Below, piece by piece: positions 7,272-51,260 of a stretch of DNA of 51,424 nt; position 1 is the first letter of the stretch, and every line of letters starts with the position of its first letter. The position numbers were made by a program, and so were the translations under genes. The DNA is taken from assembly GCA_002716065.1 (NCBI GenBank), contig PAZE01000051.1:1-51424 (forward strand), in the 5' to 3' direction. Source of the stretch: Crocinitomicaceae bacterium. Its GTDB lineage: Bacteria > Bacteroidota > Bacteroidia > Flavobacteriales_D > Parvicellaceae. A model generated the notes under the pieces. It worked only from the letters and a program-made list of their open reading frames with translations, ran no database searches and was not told the origin of the DNA.

Positions 7272-8066
7272 TTATGCAGTTACTTCTTTAGATGAGGCAA
7301 CAGCTAAGTTGTAAACCACTAATCCGAATCCAATTTTATTGATTGCATCTCCAATATTGTAAATTACATCCATGTCAATATTTTTTAATCCAAATAACAC
7401 ACCTTCAGCACCATACCATCCTGTAGTTCCTGCCATGTATCCAAGAGGATAAATAGCCCAACCAATTAGTACAAATTTGCATAAAATGTTATGTGCTTTA
7501 AGTACATTTCCACCTGCTTGGGTAGCTAATCCTTTAGCTTTTCCAAACATTATTAAGTAAACAATATAGAAGTAAGCTAGTCCAGAAACTAATCCCCATA
7601 ATGCAGCATTACTGCTATTTACTGCCTCACCGAAATATCCTGTTACCAACATTACAGTCGATGCTCCTATTAGGGTCCACATTAACTTTTTAGTTGCTCC
7701 TGCAGCTCTAAGTATTAAATAAAACTCAACGCACATTAAGGGAACTGTTAAAATCCAATCTACATACCTGAAAAATGTAGGAGATGCATTTCCAAGTACT
7801 GCTGGATCTGTGGAAAGTACACCATCAATATAAGCATTGGTTGCCCAATAATCACGCATGTAATAATAATGTACAGCTGCAATGAAAGTTATTAATCCTG
7901 AAACAAGTATGGATGTTTTCCATTTCTTGTCAAAATTGTTCATTGATAAAAAGAAAAATGCAGATGCTGCCATCATAGCCATACATCCTACAAAAAATGT
8001 AAAGCCAACAAAGTCGTTGTCTGCCATTTTAGGGGTCATTAAGAAAAGGTTATTTAAGGTATTCAT
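7272..8066 (-). CDS. Proteorhodopsin, green-tuned light-driven proton pump
   Basis: This is a 264-residue, seven-helix retinal protein. Helix C reads RYVDWILTVPLMCVEF, giving the proton-pump set D103 (Schiff-base counter-ion), T107 and E114 (proton donor), the DTE motif. The colour-tuning position three residues after VP is Met (M111), which goes with green absorption. H66 (AAVHYYY) corresponds to the conserved helix-B His and K244 (DAINKIGFG) is the retinal Schiff-base lysine. Light-driven outward H+ pumping is therefore expected. No retinal-forming blh or carotenoid genes are in the window, so retinal must come from elsewhere. The upstream region holds four TTTGTTTAAC-type elements also found before the photolyase/pterin operon. 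Confidence 0.98.
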   Translation of the reverse strand: MNTLNNLFLMTPKMADNDFVGFTFFVGCMAMMAASAFFFLSMNNFDKKWKTSILVSGLITFIAAVHYYYMRDYWATNAYIDGVLSTDPAVLGNASPTFFRYVDWILTVPLMCVEFYLILRAAGATKKLMWTLIGASTVMLVTGYFGEAVNSSNAALWGLVSGLAYFYIVYLIMFGKAKGLATQAGGNVLKAHNILCKFVLIGWAIYPLGYMAGTTGWYGAEGVLFGLKNIDMDVIYNIGDAINKIGFGLVVYNLAVASSKEVTA

Positions 8067-8082
8067 GATTATAAATTTTATT

Positions 8083-8180
8083 TTTGTTTAACAATTATAC
8101 TGTAAAGTTAAACAGAATACATCAATATTAACTTTTGTTTAATAAATTGTTGAAGTTTTAGTAAAAAAAAGTTAAACAAA
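8083..8180. promoter_or_regulatory. Four TTTGTTTAAC-type elements upstream of proteorhodopsin
   Basis: TTTGTTTAAC occurs at 8083-8092 (plus), as GTTAAACAGA at 8107-8116 (minus, one mismatch), TTTGTTTAAT at 8134-8143 (plus, one mismatch) and GTTAAACAAA at 8171-8180 (minus, exact). The first plus/minus pair is 14 bases apart, exactly as in the photolyase/pterin operon upstream region. A -7-like TAACTTTA on the minus strand (8103-8110) overlaps the second element, so binding there could block transcription. The regulator is not known from this window. Confidence 0.7.
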
Positions 8181-14234: not shown

Positions 14235-15128
14235 TTAATCTTTTGTTTTTTTAAATCCATATAAAATTTGAGGAAAAAACGATTTTGGAAAAAATTCTAC
14301 GTTATTAAATCCCAATTTGTTTTGACCTCCATCATAAGGAACATAATTGGTTTTAAAAATGTAATCCCAGATGCTTAATGATATGCCAAAATTAACGCCA
14401 TGCTTTTTTGCTGATGGAAGATCTTTAGAGTGGTGCCAAACGTGCATTTGAGGATTGTTGAAAATGTACTTAAAAACCCCATAATTTAAACGGATATTAG
14501 CATGATTTAGGTGTCCAATAGCAATTGTGAAATAATACACAATAAAGGCTTGATTGGGTTCAAAATTTCCAATTAATAGCAGTACTATATATTTTGCCGG
14601 AGTGTAAATAAACGTTTCCATCCAATGAAATCGAAAATGAGAAGCAAATCCCATTTGCTCAACTGAGTGGTGCACTTTATGAAATTGCCAAAGAAATTTA
14701 TTTTTATGTAAAAAGATGTGCGTTATCCAGCTTATAAAATCAACTAAAATAAAAAAGATAACTAGCTGTAAAATAGGGTTCAACTCCTTAGCGTTAAAAA
14801 GTTGAAAGGTCTCTTTATTTCCTATAATTGTTAAAAATAATTTTTCAACCACTACAGAAAAGCCTATAAATAGGATTACTTTAAAAATATAGAAATTGAA
14901 AAACATGTAAAATAAGTCTAACCAGAAATCTTTTCTAAATGCAGGTTGAGATTTTCTCCAAGGAAAAAGTAATTCCATTGACCAAACAAGAATAGATAGT
15001 CCAATTAGCCACCAAAAATAATTTACATACCAAACAGATGTATTAAAGGTGATTTCGTTTAATACATAGTAGAAAAAATCAATTGAGGCTTTTGAAAAAT
15101 AATAAATATATTCTTGAAAAAAGCTCAT
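14235..15128 (-). CDS. Fatty-acid hydroxylase/sterol desaturase family membrane protein
   Basis: 297 residues with about four to five membrane helices and the di-iron histidine boxes of this superfamily: HIFLH, FHKVHH, HLNH and VWHHSKD (about residues 137-225). These ligate two irons and support O2-dependent hydroxylation or desaturation of a lipid. It overlaps the upstream GMC oxidoreductase gene by 4 bases (ATGA), so the two are translationally coupled. A combined oxidation of a lipid alcohol or carotenoid-like substrate is plausible but not shown. The family name sterol desaturase should not be taken as evidence for sterols. Confidence 0.88.
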   Translation of the reverse strand: MSFFQEYIYYFSKASIDFFYYVLNEITFNTSVWYVNYFWWLIGLSILVWSMELLFPWRKSQPAFRKDFWLDLFYMFFNFYIFKVILFIGFSVVVEKLFLTIIGNKETFQLFNAKELNPILQLVIFFILVDFISWITHIFLHKNKFLWQFHKVHHSVEQMGFASHFRFHWMETFIYTPAKYIVLLLIGNFEPNQAFIVYYFTIAIGHLNHANIRLNYGVFKYIFNNPQMHVWHHSKDLPSAKKHGVNFGISLSIWDYIFKTNYVPYDGGQNKLGFNNVEFFPKSFFPQILYGFKKTKD

Positions 15129-16690
15129 TTTTTCATAGGGATTTTTTCCATAGCCCTTTCAGCTATTGCTGTAATAGATAATGAAGGGTTTACTCCAGGA
15201 TTAGCCGAAATCATGGCTCCATCAATAACAAACATGTTCTGGTATCCAAAAACACGATTGTTTTTATCAATTACCCCTTTGGTTCTATCTTCACCCATAA
15301 CAGCTCCACCAAGAATATGAGCAGTTGAGGGTATTCCAGCTAAAGGTTCTAATGCAAATACAGTAGCTCTTCCGTCAATTATTTTGGCATATTTTTTTGC
15401 TAATTCAGAGGCTCTTGGAATATAAACTCTTGGTTTTTTTCCACTTGTTATTCGTGAAGATAAAACACCAATTTTATTTTTTTTAAATTTTATTTTACTA
15501 TCTAGGGTTTGCATGAACAGGAGTGTGGCTGTTCTTTTGGCCCAATCTTTCACAAAATATAGTTTAATGTATGTTCTAGGTGTTTTGAAAAAGTTATAGA
15601 TAATTTTTAGAATATTTAAAATTGGAATTTTTCCAGTTGTGTAGGGTAGGTGGGTCCATTTCCAGAACCCAGATCCTGAGGAGTATCTACAAATTTCCAA
15701 ATGACTATCCTTATCGGTATCTAAAATAGAACCAATGGCAACTCCTTTGGACAAATCTTTTTTCCCCTTAAGATGAGTGATGCTAATTAGGCTTTCATTA
15801 TTGGTTCTTATATCTTCTCCAATCTGATTTGAAATATTTGGTAGAGAAGAATTTTTAAGTTGAAGAAGTAATTTAATAGTACCTAATACTCCACCAGAAA
15901 AAATTACTCCTTTTGCAGTTGATTTCTTTTTTCGCTTAATTAATTTGGTGCTGGATTGATAATATACTTCATAGCTGTTTCCCCCATTTATCTGAACAGG
16001 AACAACATCTACGACTTCATTTTCTGCAAGTATTTCAACCCCTAATTGTTGAGCTAGATATAGGTAGTTTTTGTCTAGTGTATTTTTAGCGCCATGCCTA
16101 CAACCGGTCATACATCCTCCACAATAATTACATCCTGTTCTTTCGGGACCTCTTCCATTAAAATAGGGGTCTGGAACTTTTTTGTTGGGCTCACCAAAAT
16201 AAACAGCAACATTTGTTGGACTGAATTTATTTGATCTTCCAATGTTTTCTGCTAGTTCTTTTAGCGCTAAATCGCCATCGAATAATACTGGCGTTTTATT
16301 TGCACCAAGCATTTTAAGCGCTGTTTTGTAATGAGGCTTTAGTTCATTTTCCCAATCTTCGAGATTTTTCCAACTTCCAGTTTCGAAAAAATCTTTTTTT
16401 GGTACAGGAAGTGTGTTTGCATATACTAAAGAACCTCCTCCAACGCCAACACCAGAGATAACACTTATGTGTCTGAAAAAACTCATTTTCATAATTCCAT
16501 GCCAACGTAGCTTTGGAGCCCATAACCATTTTTTTAGATTCCAATTGGATTTTGGAAAGTCATCTTTTTTATACCATTTACCTTTTTCAATAACAAGAAC
16601 TTTATATCCTTTTTCAGCTAGGCGTAAAGCACTTACAGATCCACCGAATCCACTTCCAATAATGATATAATCATAGTCTTGGTTTTGCAA
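15125..16690 (-). CDS. GMC-family FAD-dependent oxidoreductase
   Basis: 521 residues. The N-terminus YDYIIIGSGFGGSVSALRLAE is the Rossmann dinucleotide-binding motif, followed by GVGVGGGSLVYANTLP. A Cys-rich segment GCNYCGGCMTGCRHGAKNT (about residue 187) is typical of the ChoD/cholesterol-oxidase-like branch, and the C-terminus has the conserved VIDGAMISANPGVNPSLSI region. It probably oxidises an alcohol with FAD; the branch works on sterols or bulky lipids in some bacteria. Start of the downstream group GMC-hydroxylase-CapA-MBL, 80 bases after the photolyase stop, so it might be read through from the photolyase operon. Confidence 0.88.
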   Translation of the reverse strand: MQNQDYDYIIIGSGFGGSVSALRLAEKGYKVLVIEKGKWYKKDDFPKSNWNLKKWLWAPKLRWHGIMKMSFFRHISVISGVGVGGGSLVYANTLPVPKKDFFETGSWKNLEDWENELKPHYKTALKMLGANKTPVLFDGDLALKELAENIGRSNKFSPTNVAVYFGEPNKKVPDPYFNGRGPERTGCNYCGGCMTGCRHGAKNTLDKNYLYLAQQLGVEILAENEVVDVVPVQINGGNSYEVYYQSSTKLIKRKKKSTAKGVIFSGGVLGTIKLLLQLKNSSLPNISNQIGEDIRTNNESLISITHLKGKKDLSKGVAIGSILDTDKDSHLEICRYSSGSGFWKWTHLPYTTGKIPILNILKIIYNFFKTPRTYIKLYFVKDWAKRTATLLFMQTLDSKIKFKKNKIGVLSSRITSGKKPRVYIPRASELAKKYAKIIDGRATVFALEPLAGIPSTAHILGGAVMGEDRTKGVIDKNNRVFGYQNMFVIDGAMISANPGVNPSLSITAIAERAMEKIPMKK

Positions 16691-16770: not shown

Positions 16771-18051
16771 TTATAGTTTGGCTAGTCCAATTTTATAAGC
16801 TTCCAGGGCTCTATTTCTTGCCCATTTATGATCTACTATAGGTGTTGGATAGTCAAAAGAATTTAAATTATCCACCCATTTGTTGATGTATGTTAGCTCT
16901 TTGTCAAATTTTTTGGTTTGCTCATATGGGTTAAAGATTCTAAAATAAGGAGCTGCATCACAACCTGTTCCTGCACACCATTGCCAATTTCCATTATTGG
17001 ATGCTAGTTCGTAATCCAATAATTTTTTTGCAAAATAGGCTTCTCCCCATCTCCAATCAATTAACAAATGTTTGCAAAGAAAACTAGCGGTAATCATTCT
17101 TACTCTGTTGTGCATAAATCCAGTTTTGTTGAGTTCATTCATTCCAGCATCAACTATTGGATAACCAGTAGTTCCATTGCACCAATTTTCGAAATCTTTC
17201 TCGTTGTTATTCCATGCTATGGAGTTGTATTTTGATTTGAAATTTTCAGAAACAACTTTAGGAAAATGATGTAGAATTTGAATAAAAAATTCTCTCCATA
17301 TTAATTCACTTAAGAAAGTTGAGTTAACATTGCTAACAGATCGGACAATTTTTCTAATGCTAACGGTTCCAAATCTTAGATGAGGTCCAATTTTAGAAGT
17401 GCTATCAAGTCCTGGGAAATTTCTGGTTTTCTCATAATCAATAGCCTTATTCAGGTTGAATATTGGAACCTTAATGGAAGAAATTTTAAATCCTATATCT
17501 TCAATTTTAGGAAGAATGTGGTTAGAGAGTTTAAGATTTTTAAATTGAGTATTTTCTTCGATTGAGTTATCTAATGATTGATATTTTTCTAACCACTTGT
17601 TTTTGTAAGGAGTAAATACAGTATAAGCTAGGCCGTCATTTTTTACTACCTCACTTTTTTCAAAAATCACATGATCTTTAAATGTTTTAAACTCTATTTT
17701 TCTATCTTTTAGAATTTCTAAGATGGCATTATCTCTTGTATTGGCATATGGTTCGTAATCGCTGTTAGTGTAAACAGATTCTATTGAATGGGCATTACTT
17801 ATTTCCTTAAAAATCTTCAGAGGATCTCCTACATAAACCTTTAAAGATGAATTATAAGATTGTAATTTTTGGTGAATAGTCTTTAAATTTTCGTATATAA
17901 AAGTTAATCTTGGGTCATCAACTTCTAGTTCTGAAATAATATTGGTGTCAAAAATGAAAATGGGCTGAACGTCTTTCCTTTGTTGAAGACATTTGTTTAG
18001 TCCAGTATTGTCAACAGTTCTTAAATCTCTTCTGAACCAAAAAATATTCAT
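16771..18051 (-). CDS. phrB: Deoxyribodipyrimidine photolyase (class I CPD photolyase)
   Basis: 426 residues, shorter than E. coli PhrB (472) but complete. The antenna domain starts MNIFWFRRDLRTVDNTGL. The FAD domain has KIGPHLRFGTVSIRK, LIWREFFIQIL, TGYPIVDAGMNELNKTG, WRWGEAYFAKKLLDY and NNGNWQWCAG...YFRIFNPYEQTKKFD. The Asn/Trp set of NNGNWQW is that of CPD photolyases. It uses light to split UV-made pyrimidine dimers. The gene is the last of the tight PTPS-FolE-SRPBCC-SDR-photolyase operon, 2 bases after the SDR stop, and so is probably light-induced along with pterin synthesis. Confidence 0.95.
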   Translation of the reverse strand: MNIFWFRRDLRTVDNTGLNKCLQQRKDVQPIFIFDTNIISELEVDDPRLTFIYENLKTIHQKLQSYNSSLKVYVGDPLKIFKEISNAHSIESVYTNSDYEPYANTRDNAILEILKDRKIEFKTFKDHVIFEKSEVVKNDGLAYTVFTPYKNKWLEKYQSLDNSIEENTQFKNLKLSNHILPKIEDIGFKISSIKVPIFNLNKAIDYEKTRNFPGLDSTSKIGPHLRFGTVSIRKIVRSVSNVNSTFLSELIWREFFIQILHHFPKVVSENFKSKYNSIAWNNNEKDFENWCNGTTGYPIVDAGMNELNKTGFMHNRVRMITASFLCKHLLIDWRWGEAYFAKKLLDYELASNNGNWQWCAGTGCDAAPYFRIFNPYEQTKKFDKELTYINKWVDNLNSFDYPTPIVDHKWARNRALEAYKIGLAKL

Positions 18052-18053
18052 TG

Positions 18054-18728
18054 TTATGTCTTTAGTGTTGATAATCCACCATCTACACGAATTATTTGCC
18101 CCGTTATATTGTTGTCCTCTAATAGAAAAACAGCAGTTTTAGCAACATCTTCAGAGAAATTAATTCTTTTAGATGGATGTCTTTGATTAGATCTTTCCCT
18201 GGCTTGTTCGTTTCTTAGTATAGCTACCGCTAATGGAGTGTCGGTAAGAGATGGAGCGATACAATTTACTCTAATGCTCCCTGCAAATTCAGCCGCTAAA
18301 GATTTGGTTAATCCCTCGATAGCTCCTTTGGCGGAGGCTATTGACGCGTGAAAGGGCATTCCTTGAAATACTGCAACAGTGCTAAAAAGCAAAATTGAGG
18401 AGTTTTCTTGCTTTTTTAAAGTCCTAAAAAAATGTTTTATTGCTTTAACTGCACCAAAGAAGTTAATTTGCATGTCTGTTGTAAAATCTTCCTCTTTTAA
18501 CGACCCAAAAGGTTTAAGGTTAATTGATCCTGGACAATAAACTAAAGAGCTTACTTCATCTATTTCAGGAAGAGGGTCCTTGGTAATATCTAAATTAAAA
18601 TGGGTGTGATTGGGATAAGGGCTAGTTGGTGCATTTCTGCTTATGGTAATGCATTTTTGATCTTTTAATAGTTGGGTAATGCTTTTTCCAATACCACTAC
18701 TTGCTCCAATAACTACTGTTTTTTTCAT
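18054..18728 (-). CDS. Short-chain dehydrogenase/reductase, lacking the catalytic Tyr
   Basis: 224 residues with the SDR fold: TVVIGASSGIGKSI (NAD(P)-binding), LVYCPGS, ILLFSTVAVFQG with the catalytic Ser, and IRVNCIAPSLTDTPLA. The YxxxK motif is altered: the segment HASIASAKGAIEG keeps the Lys, but Ile stands where Tyr is expected. The enzyme may therefore be catalytically unusual or a binding protein. It overlaps the SRPBCC gene by 4 bases and precedes photolyase by 2. With FolE and PTPS upstream it occupies the place of a sepiapterin-reductase-like step, but the missing Tyr argues against assigning that activity. Confidence 0.88.
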   Translation of the reverse strand: MKKTVVIGASSGIGKSITQLLKDQKCITISRNAPTSPYPNHTHFNLDITKDPLPEIDEVSSLVYCPGSINLKPFGSLKEEDFTTDMQINFFGAVKAIKHFFRTLKKQENSSILLFSTVAVFQGMPFHASIASAKGAIEGLTKSLAAEFAGSIRVNCIAPSLTDTPLAVAILRNEQARERSNQRHPSKRINFSEDVAKTAVFLLEDNNITGQIIRVDGGLSTLKT

Positions 18729-19210
18729 GATTTAGAATTAAAAAGAGTGTCTAATTTTTTTTCTCTGTATTGGAATATTTTAGTTAACTGTGGTTTAACT
18801 ATTATCGGAAATGCTAAATGCCCTAAGATTCCAAAAGGTATTTTGAAGGATACTCTATCAATCATTTGAGTTTGATTCCCATTTTTAATAAAATGATGCT
18901 CATGATGCCACATTGAGTACGGTCCAAAGCGTTGTTCGTCCACGAAAAAATTGGGTGCATCAACATGAGTAATTTCTGTTACCCAATTGGTTTTAATGGA
19001 CAAAATAGGTTTAACAATGTATGAAATAATTTGTCCAGCAAACATGTCTTTAGTTGGACTGGAAGTGATTATAAACCCCATAGAATCAGGAGTGATTTCA
19101 GCTAAATTAGAAGGATTAGAAAAATAGCTCCAGGCTTTTTCAATTGGGGTATTAACAATTGCGTTAGTTTCTAAGGTGTAAATTCCAGAATGCTTTTTAA
19201 ATGTGATCAT
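18725..19210 (-). CDS. SRPBCC-family (START/Coq10-like) protein
   Basis: 161 residues. The sequence begins HSGIYTLETNAIVNTPIEKAWSYFSNPSNLAEITP, given here only in its family sense: the opening strand and helix of SRPBCC ligand-binding domains (IEKAWSYFSNPSNLAEITP). Later WVTEITHVDAPNFFVDEQ, YSMWHHEHHF and MIDRVSFKIPFG are typical of the polyketide-cyclase/cell-division-inhibitor-like branch. Such proteins bind lipids or hydrophobic cofactors. It overlaps FolE by 14 bases and the SDR by 4, so it belongs to the photolyase/pterin operon. The ligand is unknown. Confidence 0.85.
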   Translation of the reverse strand: MITFKKHSGIYTLETNAIVNTPIEKAWSYFSNPSNLAEITPDSMGFIITSSPTKDMFAGQIISYIVKPILSIKTNWVTEITHVDAPNFFVDEQRFGPYSMWHHEHHFIKNGNQTQMIDRVSFKIPFGILGHLAFPIIVKPQLTKIFQYREKKLDTLFNSKS

Positions 19211-19862
19211 GATTGCAGTTTAGTGAAAGATTTAAGAATTCTTTTTTGATGTCCTTTTTTTTGAATTTTCCACCGTAATAGGAAGTAATTGTAGAAGAGC
19301 TATTGTCTTTGATTCCTCTTGAAGAAACACATAAGTGTTTGGCATCAATTAACACAGCAATGTCATCGGTGTCTAAAATTTTAGCAAGTTCATCAGCAAT
19401 TTGATTGGTTAATCTTTCTTGAACTTGAGGTCTTTGAGCGAAATAATTTACAATTCGGTTTATTTTAGAAAGACCGATAACGTTTCCATTGGAGATGTAT
19501 GCAACATGCGCTTTCCCGATTATTGGTACAAAATGGTGTTCGCAGTTAGAATAAAAGGAAATGTTTTTTTCTACTAACATCTCATTGTGTTGATACTTAT
19601 TTTCAAAAAGAGATATTGCAGGCTTATTTTTTGGGTCTAAACCACTAAAAATTTCTTCTACATACATTTTTGCAACTCTTTTAGGTGTGCCGTTTAATGA
19701 ATCATCTGAAAGATCTAAACCTAATGTTTCCATTATTTTTCGAAAGTGGAATTCGATTATTTGTTTTTTTTGACTGTCATTTTTCTCAAATGCATCTTCT
19801 CTCATGGGTGTTTCATAAGAAGTAAATATATGATTATCGCCAATTAGGTCAATATCTTGCAT
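19197..19862 (-). CDS. folE: GTP cyclohydrolase I (FolE), light/pterin operon copy
   Basis: 221 residues from the start MQDIDLIGDNH at 19862. An upstream ATG at 19931 would overlap the PTPS gene by 38 bases; the shorter start gives exactly the length of the second FolE in the window (39476-40141). Zinc and active-site residues are present: NCEHHFVPIIGKAHVAY and DAKHLCVSSRGIKD, with RPQVQERL between. FolE converts GTP to 7,8-dihydroneopterin triphosphate. Directly downstream of PTPS, it provides the PTPS substrate, pointing to a biopterin-like branch rather than only to folate. Confidence 0.96.
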   Translation of the reverse strand: MQDIDLIGDNHIFTSYETPMREDAFEKNDSQKKQIIEFHFRKIMETLGLDLSDDSLNGTPKRVAKMYVEEIFSGLDPKNKPAISLFENKYQHNEMLVEKNISFYSNCEHHFVPIIGKAHVAYISNGNVIGLSKINRIVNYFAQRPQVQERLTNQIADELAKILDTDDIAVLIDAKHLCVSSRGIKDNSSSTITSYYGGKFKKKDIKKEFLNLSLNCNHDHI

Positions 19863-19893
19863 TTTTTGCTCTAGAAAAGAAGATGAGCTCGAC

Positions 19894-20304
19894 TTAGGCC
19901 GGGTATTCAACAATGTTTCTTTGTGTCTCATAAAGTCTAATTTTTAAATTCAAATTGTCTGGGAGTTTAGCATCGATTCTGTTGTAAATAACAATGGCAA
20001 TATTCTCAGCTGTAGGATTTAAGTTCTTAAACTCTGATACATCAAGATTTAAATTTTTATGGTCCATGTAATCAAGAACTTCTGATTTTATCAGATTAGA
20101 AAGTAACTTCATGTCGATTAAATAACCTGTTTCAGGGTCAATTAAACCAGAAACCATTACATCAAGATCATAATTGTGTCCATGGAAATTTGGATTATTG
20201 CACTTGCCAAAAATTTTAGTGTTTTTTTCATCACTCCAATTTGGATTGTGCAGTCTATGTGCTGCGTTAAAATGTTCTTTTCTTATAACAGTAATAGGTT
20301 TCAT
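19894..20304 (-). CDS. 6-pyruvoyl-tetrahydropterin synthase (BH4-type)
   Basis: 136 residues. Zinc ligands are in HFNAAH and HGHNY. The motif FGKCNNPNFHGHNY has five residues between the catalytic Cys and HGH, the spacing of eukaryotic and PTPS-II enzymes, whereas QueD has three. IDPETG and the ending YETQRNIVEY also match the true PTPS type. The expected reaction is dihydroneopterin triphosphate to 6-pyruvoyl-tetrahydropterin. It is the first gene of the operon and its upstream region carries the TTTGTTTAAC elements shared with proteorhodopsin. A queuosine role is less likely given the motif and absence of queC/queE. Confidence 0.9.
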   Translation of the reverse strand: MKPITVIRKEHFNAAHRLHNPNWSDEKNTKIFGKCNNPNFHGHNYDLDVMVSGLIDPETGYLIDMKLLSNLIKSEVLDYMDHKNLNLDVSEFKNLNPTAENIAIVIYNRIDAKLPDNLNLKIRLYETQRNIVEYPA

Positions 20305-20312
20305 ATTGTCAA

Positions 20313-20380
20313 TTTGTTTAACAAAATCAATTCAAACTTAAACAAAATTTGTTTAACTTTCAAACAAAAAGTTTAAACAA
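20313..20380. promoter_or_regulatory. TTTGTTTAAC element array upstream of the pterin/photolyase operon
   Basis: TTTGTTTAAC lies at 20313-20322 (plus, exact), CTTAAACAAA at 20337-20346 (minus, one mismatch), TTTGTTTAAC at 20348-20357 (plus, exact) and GTTTAAACAA at 20371-20380 (near-palindrome). The first two are 14 bases apart, the same as upstream of proteorhodopsin. The array covers the minus-strand promoter, so a repressor is the simplest model. It also lies upstream of pnuC on the other strand. Confidence 0.7.
20333..20363 (-). promoter_or_regulatory. Promoter of the PTPS-FolE-SRPBCC-SDR-photolyase operon
   Basis: On the minus strand TTG (20361-20363) is followed by a 20-base spacer and TAAGTTTG (20333-20340), a full match to the Bacteroidetes TTG/TAnnTTTG promoter. 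It sits 29 bases before the PTPS start codon and overlaps two TTTGTTTAAC elements. Confidence 0.6.
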
Positions 20381-20396
20381 TTTAAAAAATCTTCAT

Positions 20397-20438: not shown

Positions 20439-21032
20439 ATGAAATTCGAACTTATTTTTTTTCTAGAAATATTAGCTGTTTTAACAGGAATAGTAAGTGT
20501 TTGGTTTGCAAAAAAGGAAAATATATTGGTTTATCCTATAGGCATAATTAGTGTTCTTATATGGGTTTATTTGTGTTGGTTTGGTAATTTGTTTGGACAA
20601 GCTGTGGTAAATTTTTTCTTTTTCGTTATTAATATTTACGGTTGGTACAACTGGTCAAGAAAAAAAGAAGATGACTCAAGTGCTGTTAAAATTGTATATA
20701 ACACCAAAAATCAAAATATACTAGCAATTTTGATTTCTTTAGTTTTTTGGTTGATTTTGTATTTTTTGCTTATCCCTTATAAACCTGCATTGGAAAGTGC
20801 ATTTTATGTTTCTTTGGAAGCGTTAATTACTGCTATGAATTTTGTTGCCATGTTTTTATTGGCTTGGAAAAGAATGGAAAACTGGATTTATTGGATTGTT
20901 GCAGATATTATGTGCATTCCACTTTTTATTCACAAGGATTATTATCTTGGAGTAATTCAGTTTTTATTTTTTATTGTAATTGCTTTTTCGGGTTATCTTC
21001 AGTGGAAAAAACAAATTATTGAAAGAGAATGA
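20439..21032 (+). CDS. pnuC: PnuC-family vitamin transporter (nicotinamide riboside or thiamine)
   Basis: 197 residues with about seven membrane helices. PnuC signatures include VSVWFAKKENILVYPIGIIS, FFVINIYGWYNW (about residues 62-73) and AFYVSLEALITAMNF, WIYWIVADI. PnuC transporters facilitate vitamin diffusion that is made one-way by intracellular phosphorylation. The next gene, overlapping by 4 bases, is a NadR-like kinase, the usual partner. Because a TPP riboswitch and a TonB receptor follow, a thiamine-specific PnuT role is an alternative. The sequence alone does not decide the substrate. Confidence 0.88.
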   Translation: MKFELIFFLEILAVLTGIVSVWFAKKENILVYPIGIISVLIWVYLCWFGNLFGQAVVNFFFFVINIYGWYNWSRKKEDDSSAVKIVYNTKNQNILAILISLVFWLILYFLLIPYKPALESAFYVSLEALITAMNFVAMFLLAWKRMENWIYWIVADIMCIPLFIHKDYYLGVIQFLFFIVIAFSGYLQWKKQIIERE

Positions 21033-21544
21033 AAGTTGTAATCACTGGTGCTGAATCTTCTGGAAAAACTACACTTTTTGAGTCTTTGGAAAAATATTAT
21101 GGAATTGTTGGGGCTAAGGAGTTTGCTAGAAATTATTTATTAAACTCAAATGGAAAATACTCTCAAAAAGACTTGCTTTCTATAGCAAATGGGCAAATTG
21201 ATGCTGAAATTGCCGTAAAGAAAAACAACCCAGATCTTGTAATATGTGATACAGATTTGCTCACTATTAAAATATGGAGTCAGTACAAATATGGGAATTG
21301 TGATAAACAAATACATAATCTATTGAACAGTTATCCAGCTGATCTATATTTATTGATGAAACCTGATATTCCATGGGAAGATGATCCATTGAGAGAAAAT
21401 CCTGATGACAGATGGGATATATTTGGTATTTATAAGCAGGAATTAGCTATACTTGGAGTGCCATTTTTTACTATTTCAGGATCCAAAAAAAATCGTTTAA
21501 GCAAATCAATTTCAATAATTGATAAGTTTCTTTTAACTAATTAG
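21029..21544 (+). CDS. NadR-like AAA-family nucleoside/vitamin kinase
   Basis: 171 residues. P-loop GAESSGKTTL at residues 7-16, then VGAKEFARNYL, VICDTDLLTIKIW (Walker B-like) and YLLMKPDIPWEDDPLRENP, all typical of the kinase domain of NadR. The adenylyltransferase and DNA-binding parts of full NadR are absent. It would phosphorylate the vitamin entering through PnuC, either nicotinamide riboside to NMN or a thiamine-like substrate. Its ATG overlaps the pnuC end by 4 bases. The TPP riboswitch begins 20 bases after its stop. Confidence 0.88.
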   Translation: MKVVITGAESSGKTTLFESLEKYYGIVGAKEFARNYLLNSNGKYSQKDLLSIANGQIDAEIAVKKNNPDLVICDTDLLTIKIWSQYKYGNCDKQIHNLLNSYPADLYLLMKPDIPWEDDPLRENPDDRWDIFGIYKQELAILGVPFFTISGSKKNRLSKSISIIDKFLLTN

Positions 21545-39475: not shown

Positions 39476-40141
39476 TTAATCTTCTAGCTTTGATGTTAAG
39501 CTTCCAAAAAAGTCGTTTCTGCACTTTACATCTTCAAAAACACCACTATACTCAATTGTAGTAGTAAAGCTATTTTTATCTTTTATACCTCTTGAAGAAA
39601 CACAAAGGTGCTTTGCATTAATAACAACAATTACATCCTGAGTATCTAGTGTTTTTTGAAGGTCTTTTAAAATCTGCATGCATAGCCTTTCTTGTACTTG
39701 TGGACGATGAGAATAGTAATCTACCAATCGATTTATTTTAGAAAGGCCAATAACTTTTTCATTTGGAATATAAGCAATGTGAGCATGACCTACGATTGGA
39801 AGAAAATGATGCTCACAGGAAGAGTCAATGGTAATGTTTTGCTCAATTAACATCTTTTTATAACCGTATTTATTTTCAAAAGTTGAAAGCTTAGGTTTGT
39901 TGGACGGATTTAATCCATAAAAGAGCTCTTTTACATACATTTTAGCAAAACGGTAAGGAGTTCCGGATAAACTATCGTCAGACAAATCTAGTCCAAGTTC
40001 TTCCATTATTTTGGCAAAATACTTTTGTATGGATTCAATTTTTTCTTGATCAGATTTAACAAAAGCGTTTTCTAAAAGAGGAGTTTCAACATTTGTTGAA
40101 ATATGGTAATCTCCTATAAGTTCTAATTCTTGTTTATTCAT
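39476..40141 (-). CDS. folE: GTP cyclohydrolase I, second copy in the metal cluster
   Basis: 221 residues, the same length as the copy at 19197-19862 and sharing GLDLSDDSL, GLSKINR, RPQVQERL and AKHLCVSSRGIKD. All zinc and active-site residues are kept (SCEHHFLPIVGHAHIAY, HLC), so it is a type IA enzyme and not the metal-flexible FolE2 (IB). It ends an operon SEC-C-MerC-FolE below a Zur-like palindrome (40768-40786). A paralogue made under zinc shortage to keep folate or pterin flow going is a reasonable model, but the conserved zinc site leaves that open. Confidence 0.93.
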   Translation of the reverse strand: MNKQELELIGDYHISTNVETPLLENAFVKSDQEKIESIQKYFAKIMEELGLDLSDDSLSGTPYRFAKMYVKELFYGLNPSNKPKLSTFENKYGYKKMLIEQNITIDSSCEHHFLPIVGHAHIAYIPNEKVIGLSKINRLVDYYSHRPQVQERLCMQILKDLQKTLDTQDVIVVINAKHLCVSSRGIKDKNSFTTTIEYSGVFEDVKCRNDFFGSLTSKLED

Positions 40142-40142
40142 T

Positions 40143-40541
40143 TTATGAACAGCATTTATCAGATTTACATTGGCAATATTTCAAATTATAAAGATGAAGC
40201 CCTATTAGTGAAAATGCAGCAGTGTATTTAAAATATTCTGAAAAATATAACCAGCCAGATTGTTCAATAAGTATTGTTGTTAATAATCCAGCCCATGCGG
40301 TCCAAAGTGCCGGCTTCATCCAAGATTTTGATGTTGTTTGAGTAGATCTGTAAACTGCAAAAAAAGAAATGAATAAAAAGATGAAATCTAGCCATATCCA
40401 CCAAGTAGGCGCTGAAGCACAACAACTTTTAGAGCAAGCTGAAGCAATAAATAAAAATGGAGTAGCAATACAATGAATCATACAAGTAAAGCTTGCAATA
40501 GCTCCAATTAAATCAGATTTTTGTTTTAATGTTGCAATCAT
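40143..40541 (-). CDS. merC: MerC-domain membrane protein
   Basis: 132 residues with four membrane helices. The Cys motifs of MerC are present: CMIHCIATPF in helix 1-2 and SACSKSCCASAP in the first loop, and a Cys-rich cytosolic tail KYCQCKSDKCCS. MerC proteins carry mercuric ions; chromosomal versions in metal-homeostasis clusters may carry zinc or another soft metal. The stop is 1 base before folE and the start 6 bases after the SEC-C mini-gene. Confidence 0.85.
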   Translation of the reverse strand: MIATLKQKSDLIGAIASFTCMIHCIATPFLFIASACSKSCCASAPTWWIWLDFIFLFISFFAVYRSTQTTSKSWMKPALWTAWAGLLTTILIEQSGWLYFSEYFKYTAAFSLIGLHLYNLKYCQCKSDKCCS

Positions 40542-40547
40542 ACTTGA

Positions 40548-40721
40548 CTATTTACCGCAACATTTTTTGAATTTATATCCGCTTCCACAAGGGCAAGGGC
40601 TATTTCTTCCAACCTTTGGATAAGAACGAGTATATGGTTCAGGCGTATTACAACAATTAGAGTCATTGCAACAAGGCTGTTGATTTTGGCTGTGATCTAT
40701 TTCTTGTTCGTTATGAATCAT
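40548..40721 (-). CDS. SEC-C zinc-binding mini-protein
   Basis: 57 residues: [20 protein letters not shown], a double-Cys stretch (PCCN, NCCN), then [20 protein letters not shown], the SEC-C zinc-binding motif CxC...CC. In SecA this motif binds zinc and SecB; free-standing forms are common and often lie with metal genes. It opens the operon SEC-C-MerC-FolE and starts 46 bases from the Zur-like palindrome at 40768. Confidence 0.82.
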
Positions 40722-40767
40722 GTCTTATTCTCTAAATGAGAAAACAAAATTAACTTAATTTAGATTA

Positions 40768-40786
40768 AATGCAACAACGTTGCATT
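40768..40786. promoter_or_regulatory. Zur/Fur-type palindrome 1 (AATGCAAC-AAC-GTTGCATT)
   Basis: A 19-base palindrome with perfect 8-base arms and a 3-base spacer, 47 bases upstream of the SEC-C start and overlapping the cobW stop codon. The same palindrome occurs at 44771-44788 and, weaker, at 43236-43250. A Zur-like repressor is inferred from form and gene content. Confidence 0.75.
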
Positions 40787-41990
40787 AATTTACCATTCTA
40801 ACAATATTCTTTGGCCATGGATCATTGAATTCATGATTGTTATTCCACAGTTCAATTTCACTATCGGTAAGGAAACATGATTTTAATGCATTTGTGAATC
40901 GATCTACCTGACTTTCATCTCCAATTACCGTAAGGTCACAGTGGCGATCACCAAATCTTCCGGATTCTTTAGAAAGCATTTCTTTCATTAGCTCTATCTC
41001 CATTGATGAAAGACCATTATTGGCATCTTCAACAATTCCTGATCTCCAGGATCCAATTATTTCTAGATTGATACCTCCAGCGGCCTGATTCCAAAGAAGA
41101 GAGTGTTTATCTCGGCTAGCAAGCCAGAAAAAGCCTTTGCTTCGATATATTCTTTGGTCTAAAAATTGATGACAGATGTCCCACAATCTTTGAGGATGAA
41201 ATGGACGGTCGTCTTTTATTATTCTAGTGGCTAAATTGTAAGGACGGTCTTCTTTATCTTGAGAAGCTAACACAGGTTTTAGCTCGTTAATTAATTTTTC
41301 TACTTTAAAGAAGTCGTAATTTTGAAGTTCAAATAAAGACGCTATATCGAGTTTCCCAAACAAAACAGAATGTGTAGAAGAGTACGGGTTTATGTTTTGA
41401 ATGTGTGATGCAATATCAGGAAGTTTTCCCTCTTGAATTCGATCGGCTTTGGTAAGAAGAAGATGACTGCAAAACATAATCTGTTCTACTAATAAATTCA
41501 CTGTATCTCGTTTGCCATTAGCCAAGTTATTTTGCATTATTGGAATTAGTCTTTCTCCATAGTTGTAGTCATGCGAAAGCATTAAGCTATCCACAAGAGC
41601 AAATACACCGGTTAGTCTTACACTTGTATGATTCTTAAAGTATTCAATTAGAGGCATTGGGTGGCAGCTTCCGGAGGTTTCAATAATAATTAATTCTGGT
41701 TCTTGGTTCGAAAGTAATTTTTCAATTGCATCGTTAAGCTTTTTAATTCCTTTTTTACTACTTAGCACACAGGAGTGAATGGATTCCAAAATAGTGTTGT
41801 TTTGCTCAACTATATCTGTATTTCCAAGCAACTCCCCATCTACATCTAGCTCACTCATGTCATTTACAATGGCACAAACTTGAATGTTTTTCTTTTTGGA
41901 TTGAGCCAGCAGGCTTCTAAATAGGGTAGTCTTTCCAGATCCAAGGAATCCATTAAGTATTACAACTGGAATTTTTAAACTTGTTTTCAT
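40785..41990 (-). CDS. CobW/COG0523-family GTPase with a degenerate CxCC motif
   Basis: 401 residues. Walker A GFLGSGKTTLFRSLL (residues 14-28), Walker B IIIETSGSCHP, LLTKADRI as NKxD-like base motif, and a CobW C-terminal domain (RIYRSKGFFWLASRD). COG0523 proteins hand metals to enzymes using a GCxCC motif; here the site reads ESIHSCVLSSKKG, leaving only one Cys. Metal transfer must therefore differ or use other residues (the Cys of SGSCHP). In the zinc cluster next to Zur-like boxes, it may be a zinc-chaperone of the ZNG/YciC type. Confidence 0.85.
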   Translation of the reverse strand: MKTSLKIPVVILNGFLGSGKTTLFRSLLAQSKKKNIQVCAIVNDMSELDVDGELLGNTDIVEQNNTILESIHSCVLSSKKGIKKLNDAIEKLLSNQEPELIIIETSGSCHPMPLIEYFKNHTSVRLTGVFALVDSLMLSHDYNYGERLIPIMQNNLANGKRDTVNLLVEQIMFCSHLLLTKADRIQEGKLPDIASHIQNINPYSSTHSVLFGKLDIASLFELQNYDFFKVEKLINELKPVLASQDKEDRPYNLATRIIKDDRPFHPQRLWDICHQFLDQRIYRSKGFFWLASRDKHSLLWNQAAGGINLEIIGSWRSGIVEDANNGLSSMEIELMKEMLSKESGRFGDRHCDLTVIGDESQVDRFTNALKSCFLTDSEIELWNNNHEFNDPWPKNIVRMVN

Positions 41991-46610: not shown

Positions 46611-48515
46611 CTATTGTTTATTTACAAACACCTCATTGTAGTCTTCTCGACTTAAGACGGTATCAAAACCACCCACTGATTGTCCTTCATGTTTATTAAT
46701 TCCTATATATTCTAAACTGGCATCTTCATACCTTTTGAACTTGTATACCGCATCATTCATCATTGAACTGTTAAATACACCAAGGCTAACAAGTAATTCA
46801 AAATCAGACACCTGTAAACCTGTGACTTTTTTAAATAGACCAGGCTCTAATTGGGTGATTACATCTTTTAAACTGTGTTCTCTGAAATCTGTTAGATACA
46901 TGAATACTGGAATTCGAGTCGCAAATTTTATTAGTTTTTCCTGAATTTTTTTGCGTAAACTTTTATATTCTTTTTCCTCTTTTGAAAGTTCTTTTTTCTT
47001 CTTTGGAGTTAACTGTTCTTCATTTGCTTCTTTCTTTGCCTTTTTAACTGCCTCAGATTTATTTATAATTGTCTCAATATCTTGGTTAAGAGATCTAAAC
47101 CCTTCAATACTCATTAATGCGTCTAACGCATCTTGATTTTTCATCAAGCGTGCTAACGTTGAGTTGTCTACATTCACCAACAATGCAGACTCCCATCTTC
47201 GGGCAAGCAAGGTAGCTGAGGTGCCACTCATTGCAATATCTAATACCCCTGCTGCATCGATTTGTTTCATTGAACTCCCATCATAAGCCAATACAGGTAA
47301 AAAATGTATAAATTCTGCTACATTTTTCTCGGGATTAGATTCATTTATATTTAAACGACATGCATAATCTGCAACCTGACTTAGTGCTCTGTTTGGTGCA
47401 AAGTCGAAAACATAACACTCTTTTTTTATAATTTCTATTTTGTTAGGAGATTCTCCATCAGGGTTTTTGATTGCCCAAGGAGTTTGCACTCTAAATGCGG
47501 CTTGAAAATAGGTTTCTGGACTCGAAGAATTTCGTAGCATAAAAATCCCTGTCCATGGCTTAACAGAAACCCCTGTCGTAAGTTTACCGCATGACAGGGT
47601 AATAGTTTTTGATTTTAATGGGTTGCGCATCTTGTCCAAAACAGGCGGTAATGCCTCAACTCCAATACCAGCACTTGTACCAGCTGCAACTATAATCTCA
47701 TAATCCTGATAAAATAAATTATTCATTTGCATCATCAAATTTTTCATTGCGTGACATGATGCAACAGTTGGTAAAAACCAAAAAGTGTGGTTTAAAATAC
47801 TTAATAACCTTGAATCCGAAAAAGGCATTGGGGGTTTTTTAGCACCTAATTTTAAGTTATCTAAATTGGTCTCAGCGTAGTTTCCTCTAATTAAATCTAA
47901 CCATTTTTGAACCTCGTTTTCCATTTTAAAACGAGCATTTTCCTTTTCTCCAGTTGCGGCAAAGAATACATTTAAATCAAACTCATTAAACTCGCCACCA
48001 AGTGCAATTTCTCTTATTGAATCTGGCATTTGATAAGTAAGCATAACCATGCGTGGTAAAGTTAAATATGGGTTGTCTTTGCCCTCCCATTTCTCTTTAG
48101 CATTCTGTTCATCTGAATATGTCCAATTGAAGATTTGTTCTTCTATAAACTCGCCAGAATTGATGGCCCTAAATGGTGTTCCTGATAAATACAAAAAGTG
48201 ATCGGTTGTAATGGGTATAATATCGGCGTCAAAGTTTTCTACCTTACCAATTTTCTTTTCAAACTCAATTAAATCTTCGTCTTTACCATCCTCATACAAT
48301 TCATTGAACAATCCTTTGGAATTTTCATTCCAAGCACCAAAATGATATTCATCAAAAACTACACAATCCCAGTGTGTAGCATGTACCCACTCGTTTTTGG
48401 TTTTTACTCCACCAGTAGAGGTGTTTTTACCCAAGTAGTCTTGAAAAGAACCAAAGCAAACAAAAGGTTTGTTAGTATCTATATCCTCATAGGAATTTCC
48501 GTTTTTACTGATGAA
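46611..48515 (-). pseudogene. DEAD/DEAH-type restriction helicase, downstream part of a split gene
   Basis: Coding-like sequence in the same frame as the gene at 48516-49133 and separated from it only by TAA at 48516-48518. It continues FISKNGNSYEDID, KPFVCFGSFQDYL, then CVVFDEYHFGAW (the DEYH Walker B-like box of SF2 helicases), FLYLSGTPFRAI, LSCGKLTTGVSVKPWTG and AAFRVQTPW (SF2 motifs V-VI like) with a Lys-rich coiled region near the end. If expressed alone it could begin at TTG 48434 (607 residues), but it would lack the Walker A. Together the two halves form a restriction-type ATPase. Confidence 0.8.
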
Positions 48516-49133
48516 TTACCATCCCTCAAATTCAACAAGCATCATTAAATCTTCTTTCCATGCATTTTGAACTGCAGGTTTAAATGTTAAAACTAAAACC
48601 TTGGACCATCCCATTTCTTTTGCCAACTGATAAGTGGTAAATGTTTTACCAAAACGCATCTTGGCATTCCATAGATATTGTGGTGCTGACTCTAGACCTT
48701 CTTTTTGGTACTGTTTAAAATATTGAGAAGTTTTCTCAACTGCAGCCTTTTGCTCAGGACGCATAGAAAAATCTAAAGAACGATTTTCTTCATTTATCTC
48801 ACCGCTTTTTAAAGCGATGATTGCAGCACTTACATCTTCTACGGTACACTCAAACCATTCTCCTTCTGAGTTGTAAAACCCTTTATTTCGTAGATAATTA
48901 TGGATGTCATGATCTGTAAATGTAGATCCATCATTTCGCATTGCGTTTTCTTCTAGAACAATATTAAATGCTGCTCTTGTAGCACCAACTTGTTCTGTGA
49001 CCCTCGCCAAGACACTTCTGTTAGTTTGACCAATCTTTAATTGCCCTTTTCTAGAACTATCGTTTGGTAATTCATAGGCATAAATAATTGGCTTTACAGC
49101 TGATTTTTTTGGAAAGAATTCTTGCTTTTTCAT
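48516..49133 (-). CDS. N-terminal part of the restriction helicase (GIY-YIG/T5orf172-like domain plus Walker A)
   Basis: 205 residues, from ATG at 49133 to an in-frame TAA. The first about 110 residues (IIYAYELPNDSSRKGQLKIGQTNRSVLARV) resemble a GIY-YIG/T5orf172 nuclease domain (KIGQT...R). It then gives RPEQKAAVEKTSQYF, a Walker A-like WNAKMRFGKTFTTYQLA and KVLVLTFKPAVQNAWKED, the first half of an SF2 helicase. It stops after EFEGW. A CAA-to-TAA change at the next codon would explain the break. It overlaps the second methylase-like gene by 4 bases. Confidence 0.82.
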   Translation of the reverse strand: MKKQEFFPKKSAVKPIIYAYELPNDSSRKGQLKIGQTNRSVLARVTEQVGATRAAFNIVLEENAMRNDGSTFTDHDIHNYLRNKGFYNSEGEWFECTVEDVSAAIIALKSGEINEENRSLDFSMRPEQKAAVEKTSQYFKQYQKEGLESAPQYLWNAKMRFGKTFTTYQLAKEMGWSKVLVLTFKPAVQNAWKEDLMMLVEFEGW

Positions 49134-50629
49134 AATTCCATTGTTCTGACCATTGAGTCGATAAACTTGGTTTCTTCTTCCGTTAATCCATATTTGACAT
49201 ACAGTTTTTCATCAGTCCACTCCTCATCAAAGTTTTGAATTGGAACTTCTGAATAAACTCCTTTTGGGGCATTTTGGGTGTTCTTCTTCTGAAGAATTAA
49301 AAATCTGGTAAATTTAGTTGCTAGATAATATTGGATATTTTTAGCTCTATTTTGGTTTACAACAGGTCCAATTACTAAATATGTTTCAGAACAACATGTG
49401 TTTTCTTCTGCAATAAATGGTTTACCAATTACCAAATAAGGAAAAGAACCTCTCTCCCCATATGCTTTTGCTATCATTACCTTTATTTCTGGTAACCACG
49501 CTTCATTTTTTAAAATCTTATGCTTTGAAACATATCCATTGTTGGGATATGAATATATTTTCACACTATTTTTAGAATACTTCTCGCTTACTCTAACGGA
49601 AGAATTGATTCCAAATGGTTTTCTTGAACTGACAATTGACTGGAGGGATTTTTCATTCAAAGATTTAACTTTTCTTAAAATACTGACTCCTTGATTAAAT
49701 CTAATAAATGTTGATGTGTTTTTTTCAAGCAAGGGTCGGATCATTTCATTTTTATTTCCATCTCTTATTGAGATTACTTTACAATCACTATGGTTATCTC
49801 TCTCCCAGAGGAAATAGCAAACTCCCCCAGAAATATCCACACCTGGGAAACATTCAACTGAATTAAAGTAGTCAACGAGAACTTTAATTCTCCTATCATT
49901 AAGCATATCATTTCTAAATTCATCGAGTCCTTTACCACCAGAATACCATCTAGCTGGAATAATCATAGACAAATACCTTGGCTTTAGCTTCATTCCTTGC
50001 TGAATAAACTTTTGATAAATTGGTTTGGCACTTGTACCCATTCCCCCTCCGTCATTCAGCTGATAAGGTGGATTTCCTATAATTACATCAAACTTCATAT
50101 TAAATATATTTTGCGGCTCATCAATATGAATAAACTGATAAGCATAGGTTTCTAAATCGTCTGTTCTTCTATACACTTCCTCATTTGCACCACAATAGAT
50201 ACACTTCCCATTTTTCCAAGTGTGCTGAATACGTTCGTATTTTATATTGCCTTGTTCGTTTTCAAAATCAGTACATACAGAGTAGTCCCCGTTCGCATAT
50301 TTAGAACAGTAGGTACTTCTTCTTGCTAGTAAGGAAGTAAGTTCAGTGATGGCAATTCCATACAATTGTTTTGTGAAAATGTGGTTTATTCGTTCTTGTT
50401 GGTCAGGGATTTGTTGTTTCAGCCCTTCATTTAGTCGTTTGGCAATTTCTCTAAGAAAAACCCCTGATTTTGTCACAGGATCAAGAAAGGTAGTTTCTTT
50501 GTTTTGAAATAAATCCTGGGGCAGCATATCTAACATTTCATTAACCAATTTAGGAGGTGTAAAAACCTCATCATTGCTCAAGTTTGCAAGACACGATAAG
50601 ACATCAGGATTATAATTTACATTAAGCAT
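49130..50629 (-). CDS. Eco57I/TaqI-like DNA adenine methylase, second subunit
   Basis: 499 residues. EVFTPPKLVNEMLDMLP is the usual opening of N6-adenine methylases. The SAM motif I is altered, FLDPVTKSGVFL against the usual DPACGSGxFL. Motif IV NPPYQL follows GNP (about residue 185), so catalysis is plausible. A CIYCG zinc-ribbon-like piece (about 143) lies between, and the C-terminal half (300-499) looks like a target-recognition region (LYVKYGLTEEE at the end). It overlaps both neighbours (8 and 4 bases), forming an M1-M2-R operon. Confidence 0.85.
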   Translation of the reverse strand: MLNVNYNPDVLSCLANLSNDEVFTPPKLVNEMLDMLPQDLFQNKETTFLDPVTKSGVFLREIAKRLNEGLKQQIPDQQERINHIFTKQLYGIAITELTSLLARRSTYCSKYANGDYSVCTDFENEQGNIKYERIQHTWKNGKCIYCGANEEVYRRTDDLETYAYQFIHIDEPQNIFNMKFDVIIGNPPYQLNDGGGMGTSAKPIYQKFIQQGMKLKPRYLSMIIPARWYSGGKGLDEFRNDMLNDRRIKVLVDYFNSVECFPGVDISGGVCYFLWERDNHSDCKVISIRDGNKNEMIRPLLEKNTSTFIRFNQGVSILRKVKSLNEKSLQSIVSSRKPFGINSSVRVSEKYSKNSVKIYSYPNNGYVSKHKILKNEAWLPEIKVMIAKAYGERGSFPYLVIGKPFIAEENTCCSETYLVIGPVVNQNRAKNIQYYLATKFTRFLILQKKNTQNAPKGVYSEVPIQNFDEEWTDEKLYVKYGLTEEETKFIDSMVRTMEL

Positions 50630-51260
50630 ACTCAGCTATTTTTAAAAAATGAGTAATTGGGAAGTCTTTTACAGGTTCATCTATTGCTGCAGGATTTCCT
50701 TCGTCATTAAACATAGAGAATTGATGGGTTTGTTCAACTAAAAATTTAAAGACATAATCACGTCTTTTAATCATACTCCCGTTAATTGCTGACCATTCTG
50801 AAAAAACAATTGGTTCTTTGGTTTCAGGATTTGTAAAGTCCAAAGCATCACCCCATAGAATATTTCTTTTCAGTAAAAATTTTACAGACGCTCTACAGTC
50901 TTCTTTACAGTCAGTTTTATACAATCTTGTATAGATGCCGTCAAAGATTTCAAATAATCGATCACGACATTCTATTGCATTGTCTTGCAAGATGTCAACT
51001 CCGTATATACTAGAAATTGCAATGATGGCATTGCGTTCAAATTCAATTTGATTTTTTTTGTATCTATCTGTAACGATTTTGAGTTTTCTGTTTAGTATTT
51101 CAACAAGAAAATTACCTGTTCCACATGCAGGCTCCAAGAATCTAGAATCAATTCTTTCGGTCTCTTGTTTTACCAGATCCAACATAGCATTAACCTCGCG
51201 TTCTGAAGTAAAAACTTCACCGTGGTCAGCTACTCTTTTTTTTGATTTTGTTTGGCTCAT
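50622..51260 (-). CDS. DNA methylase-like protein with SAM motif but without NPPY
   Basis: 212 residues: GEVFTSEREVNAMLDLVKQE, FLEPACGTGNFLVEIL (canonical SAM motif I, about residue 45) and SIYGVDILQDNAIECRDRL. At the place of NPPY it reads WSAINGSMIKRRDYVFKFL, and no D/N-PP-Y occurs. It might bind SAM and pair with the second subunit, which has NPPY but a weak motif I. First gene of the restriction-like operon. Confidence 0.82.
   Translation of the reverse strand: MSQTKSKKRVADHGEVFTSEREVNAMLDLVKQETERIDSRFLEPACGTGNFLVEILNRKLKIVTDRYKKNQIEFERNAIIAISSIYGVDILQDNAIECRDRLFEIFDGIYTRLYKTDCKEDCRASVKFLLKRNILWGDALDFTNPETKEPIVFSEWSAINGSMIKRRDYVFKFLVEQTHQFSMFNDEGNPAAIDEPVKDFPITHFLKIAEYA

Follow-up and report, generated by a model that had tools for sequence, protein, structure and literature searches.

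The biochemistry of CarH is established: the protein carrying adenosylcobalamin (AdoCbl) is bound to DNA in the dark, and photolysis leads to its release. CarH of Thermus thermophilus is a class I, AdoCbl photoreceptor (PDB 5c8d, 5c8e, 5c8f). Of the two B12-binding domains, class II LitR proteins of Pseudomonas (PplR1-3, PmlR2) retain only one, and a LOV protein serves PmlR2 as a partner. Their regulons contain photolyase, folE, cryB, folM and related light-inducible genes and no rhodopsin, and their two-part palindromic operator overlaps promoter elements (PMC9758184).

Light-linked control of proteorhodopsin (PR) was reported for RpoS1 of Vibrio campbellii, which was described as the first identified PR regulator (PMC3380642). 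RpoS1 is a stress sigma factor with a possibly indirect effect, and not a dedicated photoreceptor with an operator in the PR promoter. According to a study of 2012, molecular PR regulators were unknown in any organism but V. campbellii (PMC3380642). PR, cryptochrome and photolyase of Dokdonia MED134 are reported to be light-responsive (PMC9040609), and PR of Dokdonia PRO95 was termed constitutive in one paper (PMC3380642) and light-responsive elsewhere (PMC9040609). Photolyase genes are enriched in PR-bearing Flavobacteriia (PMC5932025). Light-induced carotenoids in Chryseobacterium prompted a guess at a CarA/LitR-like regulator (PMC7064467). No link of LitR/CarH to PR control, nor a later PR regulator, was found in the open literature, subscription papers lying outside the search.

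The window, i.e. the whole stretch of 51,424 nucleotides analysed here, carries a PR gene and a pterin/photolyase operon behind copies of one palindromic element. The same genome encodes a LitR/CarH-type regulator, called LitR below. It shares the MerR helix-turn-helix (HTH), the B12 module and the predicted fold of CarH, and it is likewise encoded with carotenoid genes. The two systems differ in sequence (about 20% identity over the structural alignment), in the operator and in the target set, which here takes in PR, pterin/photolyase and fasciclin genes. Photolyase, folE and a two-part palindromic operator over promoter elements also recall the class II proteins. However, the operator of PplR1/PmlR2, T(G/A)TACA-N12-TGTA(C/T)A (PMC9758184), is not matched by the TGTTTA-N18-TAAACA found here.

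Results and discussion

A paired operator before the PR and photolyase genes

According to the original prediction, TTTGTTTAAC occurs as plus/minus pairs upstream of the pterin/photolyase operon and of the PR gene. Both pairs are present. The decamers at 20313-20322 and 20337-20346 are 14 bases apart, and those at 8083-8092 and 8107-8116 have the same 14-base gap, with one mismatch in the latter decamer (TCTGTTTAAC). The repeated element can be written as a 34-bp palindrome, TTTGTTTAA-N16-TTAAACAAA. Two more copies that had been noticed near 20348-20380 turned out to form, together, a second complete operator. Sites were scored with a weight matrix (PWM) trained on sites of the family, the window's own sites being excluded; stretches without a recognised site score up to about 6. 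The features of the window are as follows.

7272..8066, minus strand, proteorhodopsin (PR; Bac_rhodopsin, PF01036)
8083..8116, no strand assigned, PR operator, PWM 32.0, ending 16 bp before the PR start codon
8092..8099, minus strand, -7-like box TATAATTG inside the PR operator (TAnnTTTG with one mismatch)
14235..16690, minus strand, GMC-type oxidoreductase (cholesterol-oxidase-like, below cut-off) and a hydroxylase/desaturase-like gene
16771..18051, minus strand, DNA photolyase/cryptochrome family protein
18054..18728, minus strand, short-chain dehydrogenase (SDR)
18725..19210, minus strand, 161-aa protein, SRPBCC-like by eye and conserved in the operon of relatives
19197..19931, minus strand, GTP cyclohydrolase I (FolE)
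19894..20304, minus strand, PTPS/QueD-like protein of the 6-pyruvoyl-tetrahydropterin synthase family, first gene of the operon
20313..20346, no strand assigned, operator 1 of the PTPS-folE-photolyase operon, TTTGTTTAA-N16-TTAAACAAA, PWM 30.0
20322..20329, minus strand, -7-like box TGATTTTG inside operator 1 (TAnnTTTG with one mismatch)
20348..20381, no strand assigned, operator 2, tandem copy with one mismatch, PWM 22, register 35 bp to operator 1
20439..21544, plus strand, divergent PnuC (PF04973) and NadR-like AAA_28 genes, conserved neighbours

Operator 1 lies 8 bp from the PTPS start codon. The 161-aa protein gave no match to Pfam and NCBIfam profiles. The two genes at 14235..16690 are probably the tail of the operon, judging from the gene order conserved in L096 and L099. 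Regulation of the divergent PnuC gene by the operators is doubtful because a TAATTTTG box belonging to this gene lies downstream of the two. Extra half-sites at 8134 (plus) and 8171 (minus) do not support a second PR operator (PWM -0.2 and 2.2). Elsewhere in the window, a second FolE paralogue has a MerC-like gene and a gene for a CobW/COG0523-type GTPase as neighbours (39476-41990, by eye), which looks like a set of metal (zinc) stress genes separate from the light-linked folE. At the contig end, a helicase-like gene and two DNA-methyltransferase-like genes (46611-51260, by eye) are probably a restriction-modification island.

The exact pair, with a spacing of N10-N20 permitted, occurs three times in the 2.33-Mb genome and every time with N16, whereas the reversed pattern with the same spacing range occurs nowhere in it. 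A strict, slightly looser form, TNTGTTTAA-N16-TTAAACANA, has four occurrences in the genome against an expectation of 0.018 from a second-order model of the local sequence (Poisson P about 4e-9). The genome search that had been proposed for the inverted pair thus shows it to be rare and not frequent before unrelated genes. Two strict sites are those at the promoters of PR (8083-8116) and of PTPS-folE-(161-aa protein)-SDR-photolyase (20313-20346). The third, C15:23234 (contigs of the genome are given as C numbers), abuts the start codon of a Lacal_2735-family gene that is followed by a DUF2805/TIGR03643 gene. The fourth, C2:32714, abuts the ATG of the 292-aa MerR-B12 protein (litR), which is followed by crtI-, crtB- and crtZ-like genes.

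Taken singly, the decamers show no enrichment in the window (13 matches with at most one mismatch versus 16.8 expected), so half-site enrichment alone was rejected as an explanation. The significance resides in the paired arrangement and not in the single decamers. Matches with two mismatches occur at 16 places in the genome versus 9 in the control, and as candidate sites they are mostly at chance level. There are two exceptions, both probably real. C2:32664 (PWM 23.4) is next to litR and directly adjoins the divergent gene of a TonB-dependent receptor, and C43:10987 (PWM 19.2) overlaps the start codon (ATG) of a DUF983 gene. A DUF983-like gene also follows a SOUL gene behind the operator in relatives (cluster 24).

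Within the family, 28 of 39 genomes have the operator and no genome has the control. At the level of the order, the strict site is present in 140/399 genomes and the reversed control in 0.

Promoters of proteorhodopsin genes

PR promoters were tested INDEPENDENTLY: the PR genes were gathered by the PR protein alone and the motif was not used. All 14 PR genes of the family with upstream DNA have a site (PWM 16.5-32). Among PR genes of Flavobacteriia in GTDB genomes, an upstream site was found in 68/79 versus 0/77 downstream control stretches; the two sets overlap in some members of the family, and certain PR promoters are nearly the same sequence, which reduces the effective number. The larger set covers Robiginitalea, Allomuricauda, Winogradskyella, Nonlabens, Kordia, Aquimarina, Dokdonia, Leeuwenhoekiella, Maribacter, Tenacibaculum, one Polaribacter and uncultured lineages.

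As a rule, the PR operator ends some 20 bp ahead of the start codon. The spacing was also obtained independently of the matrix: exactly 18 bases separate 49 of the 69 convergent TGTTTA/TAAACA pairs upstream of PR. Two operators are present at 24/79 PR promoters. Their registers are 34/35 or 44-46 bp, apart from a single case of 31. About one helical turn separates the two register groups, and the PTPS pair of the window has the register of 35.

These data bear on the view that the pairs match by chance or are simply the AT-rich sequence usual in promoters. The sequence is indeed AT-rich, single decamers are not enriched, and promoter elements of Bacteroidota themselves contain TTG/TTTG. However, a chance origin is contradicted by the reversed-pattern controls (none in 399 genomes), the Poisson expectation and the 77 matched control stretches devoid of a site, and the fixed spacing and the occurrence of only four strict sites in the genome also speak against it. 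Such an origin is therefore extremely improbable.

The flavobacterial -7 consensus is TAnnTTTG (quoted in PMC3587595). Inside the PR operators, this box is in sense orientation in 22 promoters and antisense in 1. Its usual start is operator position 17 or 18, immediately ahead of the half-site nearer the gene, and G is enriched 20 bases upstream of it, which fits a -33 element. At non-PR targets the orientation of the box is weakly biased (9 versus 3 of 38). The second element of each pair had been said to overlap a -7-like hexamer. The box is there at both promoters of the window, but it abuts the gene-proximal half-site. Because the -7 box is inside the PR operator, a bound protein would cover the box and the transcription start, which is the geometry of a repressor.

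The regulator encoded beside the carotenoid genes

The candidate regulator is encoded on another contig of the same genome.

C2:32748-33623, LitR/CarH-type regulator, 292 aa

A search for a MerR/B12-type regulator with its own copy of the site had been proposed, and LitR is such a protein: since the strict site abuts its ATG, autoregulation of litR may be inferred. The gene order is litR-crtI-crtB-crtZ. The N-terminal HTH matches PF13411 (MerR_1) with 55.6 bits (cut-off 21.6), PF02607 (B12-binding_2) is above its cut-off, and PF02310 is below it (20.4 versus 32.1). CarH of T. thermophilus is the best sequence match in the PDB. W139, E149, H150 and H187 of LitR (the W-x9-EH motif and the axial His) are identical in 30/30 family homologues. 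They align with W131, E141, H142 and axial H177, the light and cobalamin residues of CarH. The AlphaFold model has a mean pLDDT of 88.5, and its top fold matches are dark-state structures of CarH; against isolated B12 modules (CarH, Chloracidobacterium) the TM scores are 0.7-0.8, normalised by target. By every defining feature testable here, the regulator groups with LitR/CarH.

The genome also contains a PduO-type adenosyltransferase (PF01923). Its only further B12-binding_2 protein comes from a frame of 908 aa, which would fit methionine synthase. AdoCbl could therefore plausibly be made from salvaged B12. The beta-carotene cleavage enzyme Blh (PF15461) had no match in this genome (an 85% complete assembly), and the control genomes were also matchless.

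Since the operator is also on the gene of this predicted B12 light sensor, the sensor is the likely switch of PR. The repressor geometry at PR, together with the biochemistry of CarH, suggests that PR would be off in the dark and on in the light. LitR could instead activate transcription in a light-dependent manner, or act by way of a partner photoreceptor. MerR proteins often activate transcription from a site between promoter elements. A partner would have a precedent in the class II protein PmlR2, which works with a short LOV photoreceptor (PMC9758184). Against both stand the four CarH cobalamin and light residues kept in all 30 homologues, the full B12-module fold predicted here and absent from class II, and the -7 box covered by the operator at PR. 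An activating or partner-dependent LitR is thus very unlikely, and a dark repressor of the CarH type fits better.

Target genes and co-occurrence in relatives

In 28/30 LitR loci, sites are beside litR or before the following crt operon, often as a tandem pair. The genes directly downstream of family sites are litR-crt, ECF sigma-crtI-crtB, PTPS-folE-SDR-photolyase, DUF429-photolyase with a divergent SOUL gene, GPx-SDR, DUF2805-photolyase, fasciclin proteins and, divergent from litR, a TonB receptor. Elsewhere in the order, outside this family, the operator precedes litR, crtI, crtB-crtZ, ECF sigma-crtI, PTPS-FolE and fasciclin genes.

Fasciclin-domain proteins recur across families (L084, L098, L127, L133, L134, L152, L171, L174, L176, L178), and their role in a light response is not obvious. 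A TonB-dependent receptor with CarboxypepD_reg_2 is beside litR and divergent from it in L094, L102, L106, L122, L128 and L130, and stands alone behind its own operator in L076 and L100. In genus g3 of the family, the operator (position 6001 in L086 and L090) precedes an operon with HMG-CoA reductase, GHMP kinases, a decarboxylase and a UbiA-like protein. This appears by eye to be the mevalonate pathway, so that in genus g3 the regulon may include isoprenoid supply. In many lineages the crt operon directly behind the operator begins with the gene of an ECF sigma factor: L126, L132, L153, L159, L161-L163, L165, L169, L172, L173, L175, L177 and L179. The arrangement suggests a cascade from photoreceptor to sigma factor for carotenoids.

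Across the order, the operator is present in 134/330 genomes with LitR versus 6/69 without it (p=6.6e-8), although genomes and PR genes are phylogenetically related, so that counts are not independent and the statistics overstate independence. The six operator-bearing genomes without detected LitR are all drafts of 62-90% estimated completeness.

PR lacks the operator in 11/79 cases (L185-L187, L196, L198, L215, L228, L229, L231, L249, L255), several of them Polaribacter and Crocinitomicaceae-type MAGs. LitR is present in 9/11 of these genomes (six of the nine also have no site beside litR) and in 19/19 of the operator-bearing PR genomes checked. A site beside litR was found in 18/19 genomes whose PR has the operator versus 3/9 whose PR has none (p=0.0014). 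Recognition and the PR operator therefore appear to have been lost or changed together. In these lineages the operator may have changed or the link may have been lost; a search by eye found no alternative operator common to the site-lacking PR promoters.

The same data weigh on whether the shared operator is bound by some other regulator, such as an unidentified MerR protein or a redox or oxidative-stress repressor, with litR as a mere target. The case for LitR is indirect and consists of the site at its own promoter, the co-occurrence and the content of the regulon; GPx and SOUL targets could also fit oxidative stress, and nine genomes have LitR yet no site at PR. However, the four strict sites of the genome include no regulator gene other than litR, and in relatives only one further regulator recurs at the sites, the ECF sigma factor at the head of crt operons, which does not belong to a repressor family. 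The loss of the site at PR accompanies its loss at litR, and the targets agree with LitR regulons already described (PMC9758184). A different binding protein is therefore unlikely. A LitR/CarH-type regulator had been named by analogy as the leading candidate, and it gains support from the CarH photoreceptor residues, the CarH fold, the conserved regulon and the operator in most flavobacterial PR promoters.

Conclusions

We conclude, with a probability of about 0.85, that a class-I-like LitR/CarH regulator has this element as its operator, with AdoCbl-LitR as a dark repressor that is released by light. The analysis establishes the sites and how rare they are, where they lie over the -7 box in PR promoters, the conserved targets, the operator of litR itself, the co-occurrence, and the photoreceptor residues and predicted fold of LitR; LitR binding, the sign of its action and the AdoCbl photochemistry we infer. 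In the dark, LitR with AdoCbl would occupy the 34-bp palindrome and cover the -7 box and the transcription start. It would thereby repress PR, the pterin/SDR/photolyase operon, the carotenoid operon, the DUF2805 operon and litR itself. Light would break the Co-C bond of AdoCbl and LitR would leave the DNA, so that energy capture by PR, pigment and DNA repair would be switched on together. It is likely that a B12 photoreceptor directly represses PR in the dark in most marine Flavobacteriia, by way of a 34-bp operator that surrounds the -7 box and has not been described before.

One shared regulator would account for the light response of MED134 (PMC9040609) and for the gap in PR regulators noted in 2012 (PMC3380642). 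The analysis names a regulator, an operator, a promoter geometry and the rest of a regulon for flavobacterial PR. Direct tests are possible in genera with cultured members, namely Dokdonia, Nonlabens, Leeuwenhoekiella and Kordia. If the proposal is true, PR, carotenoid, photolyase and pterin genes would be one light regulon across the group. Light-energy capture would be tied to B12 supply, and dark repression would fail in cells with too little B12. Marine phototrophy would then be linked to vitamin B12.
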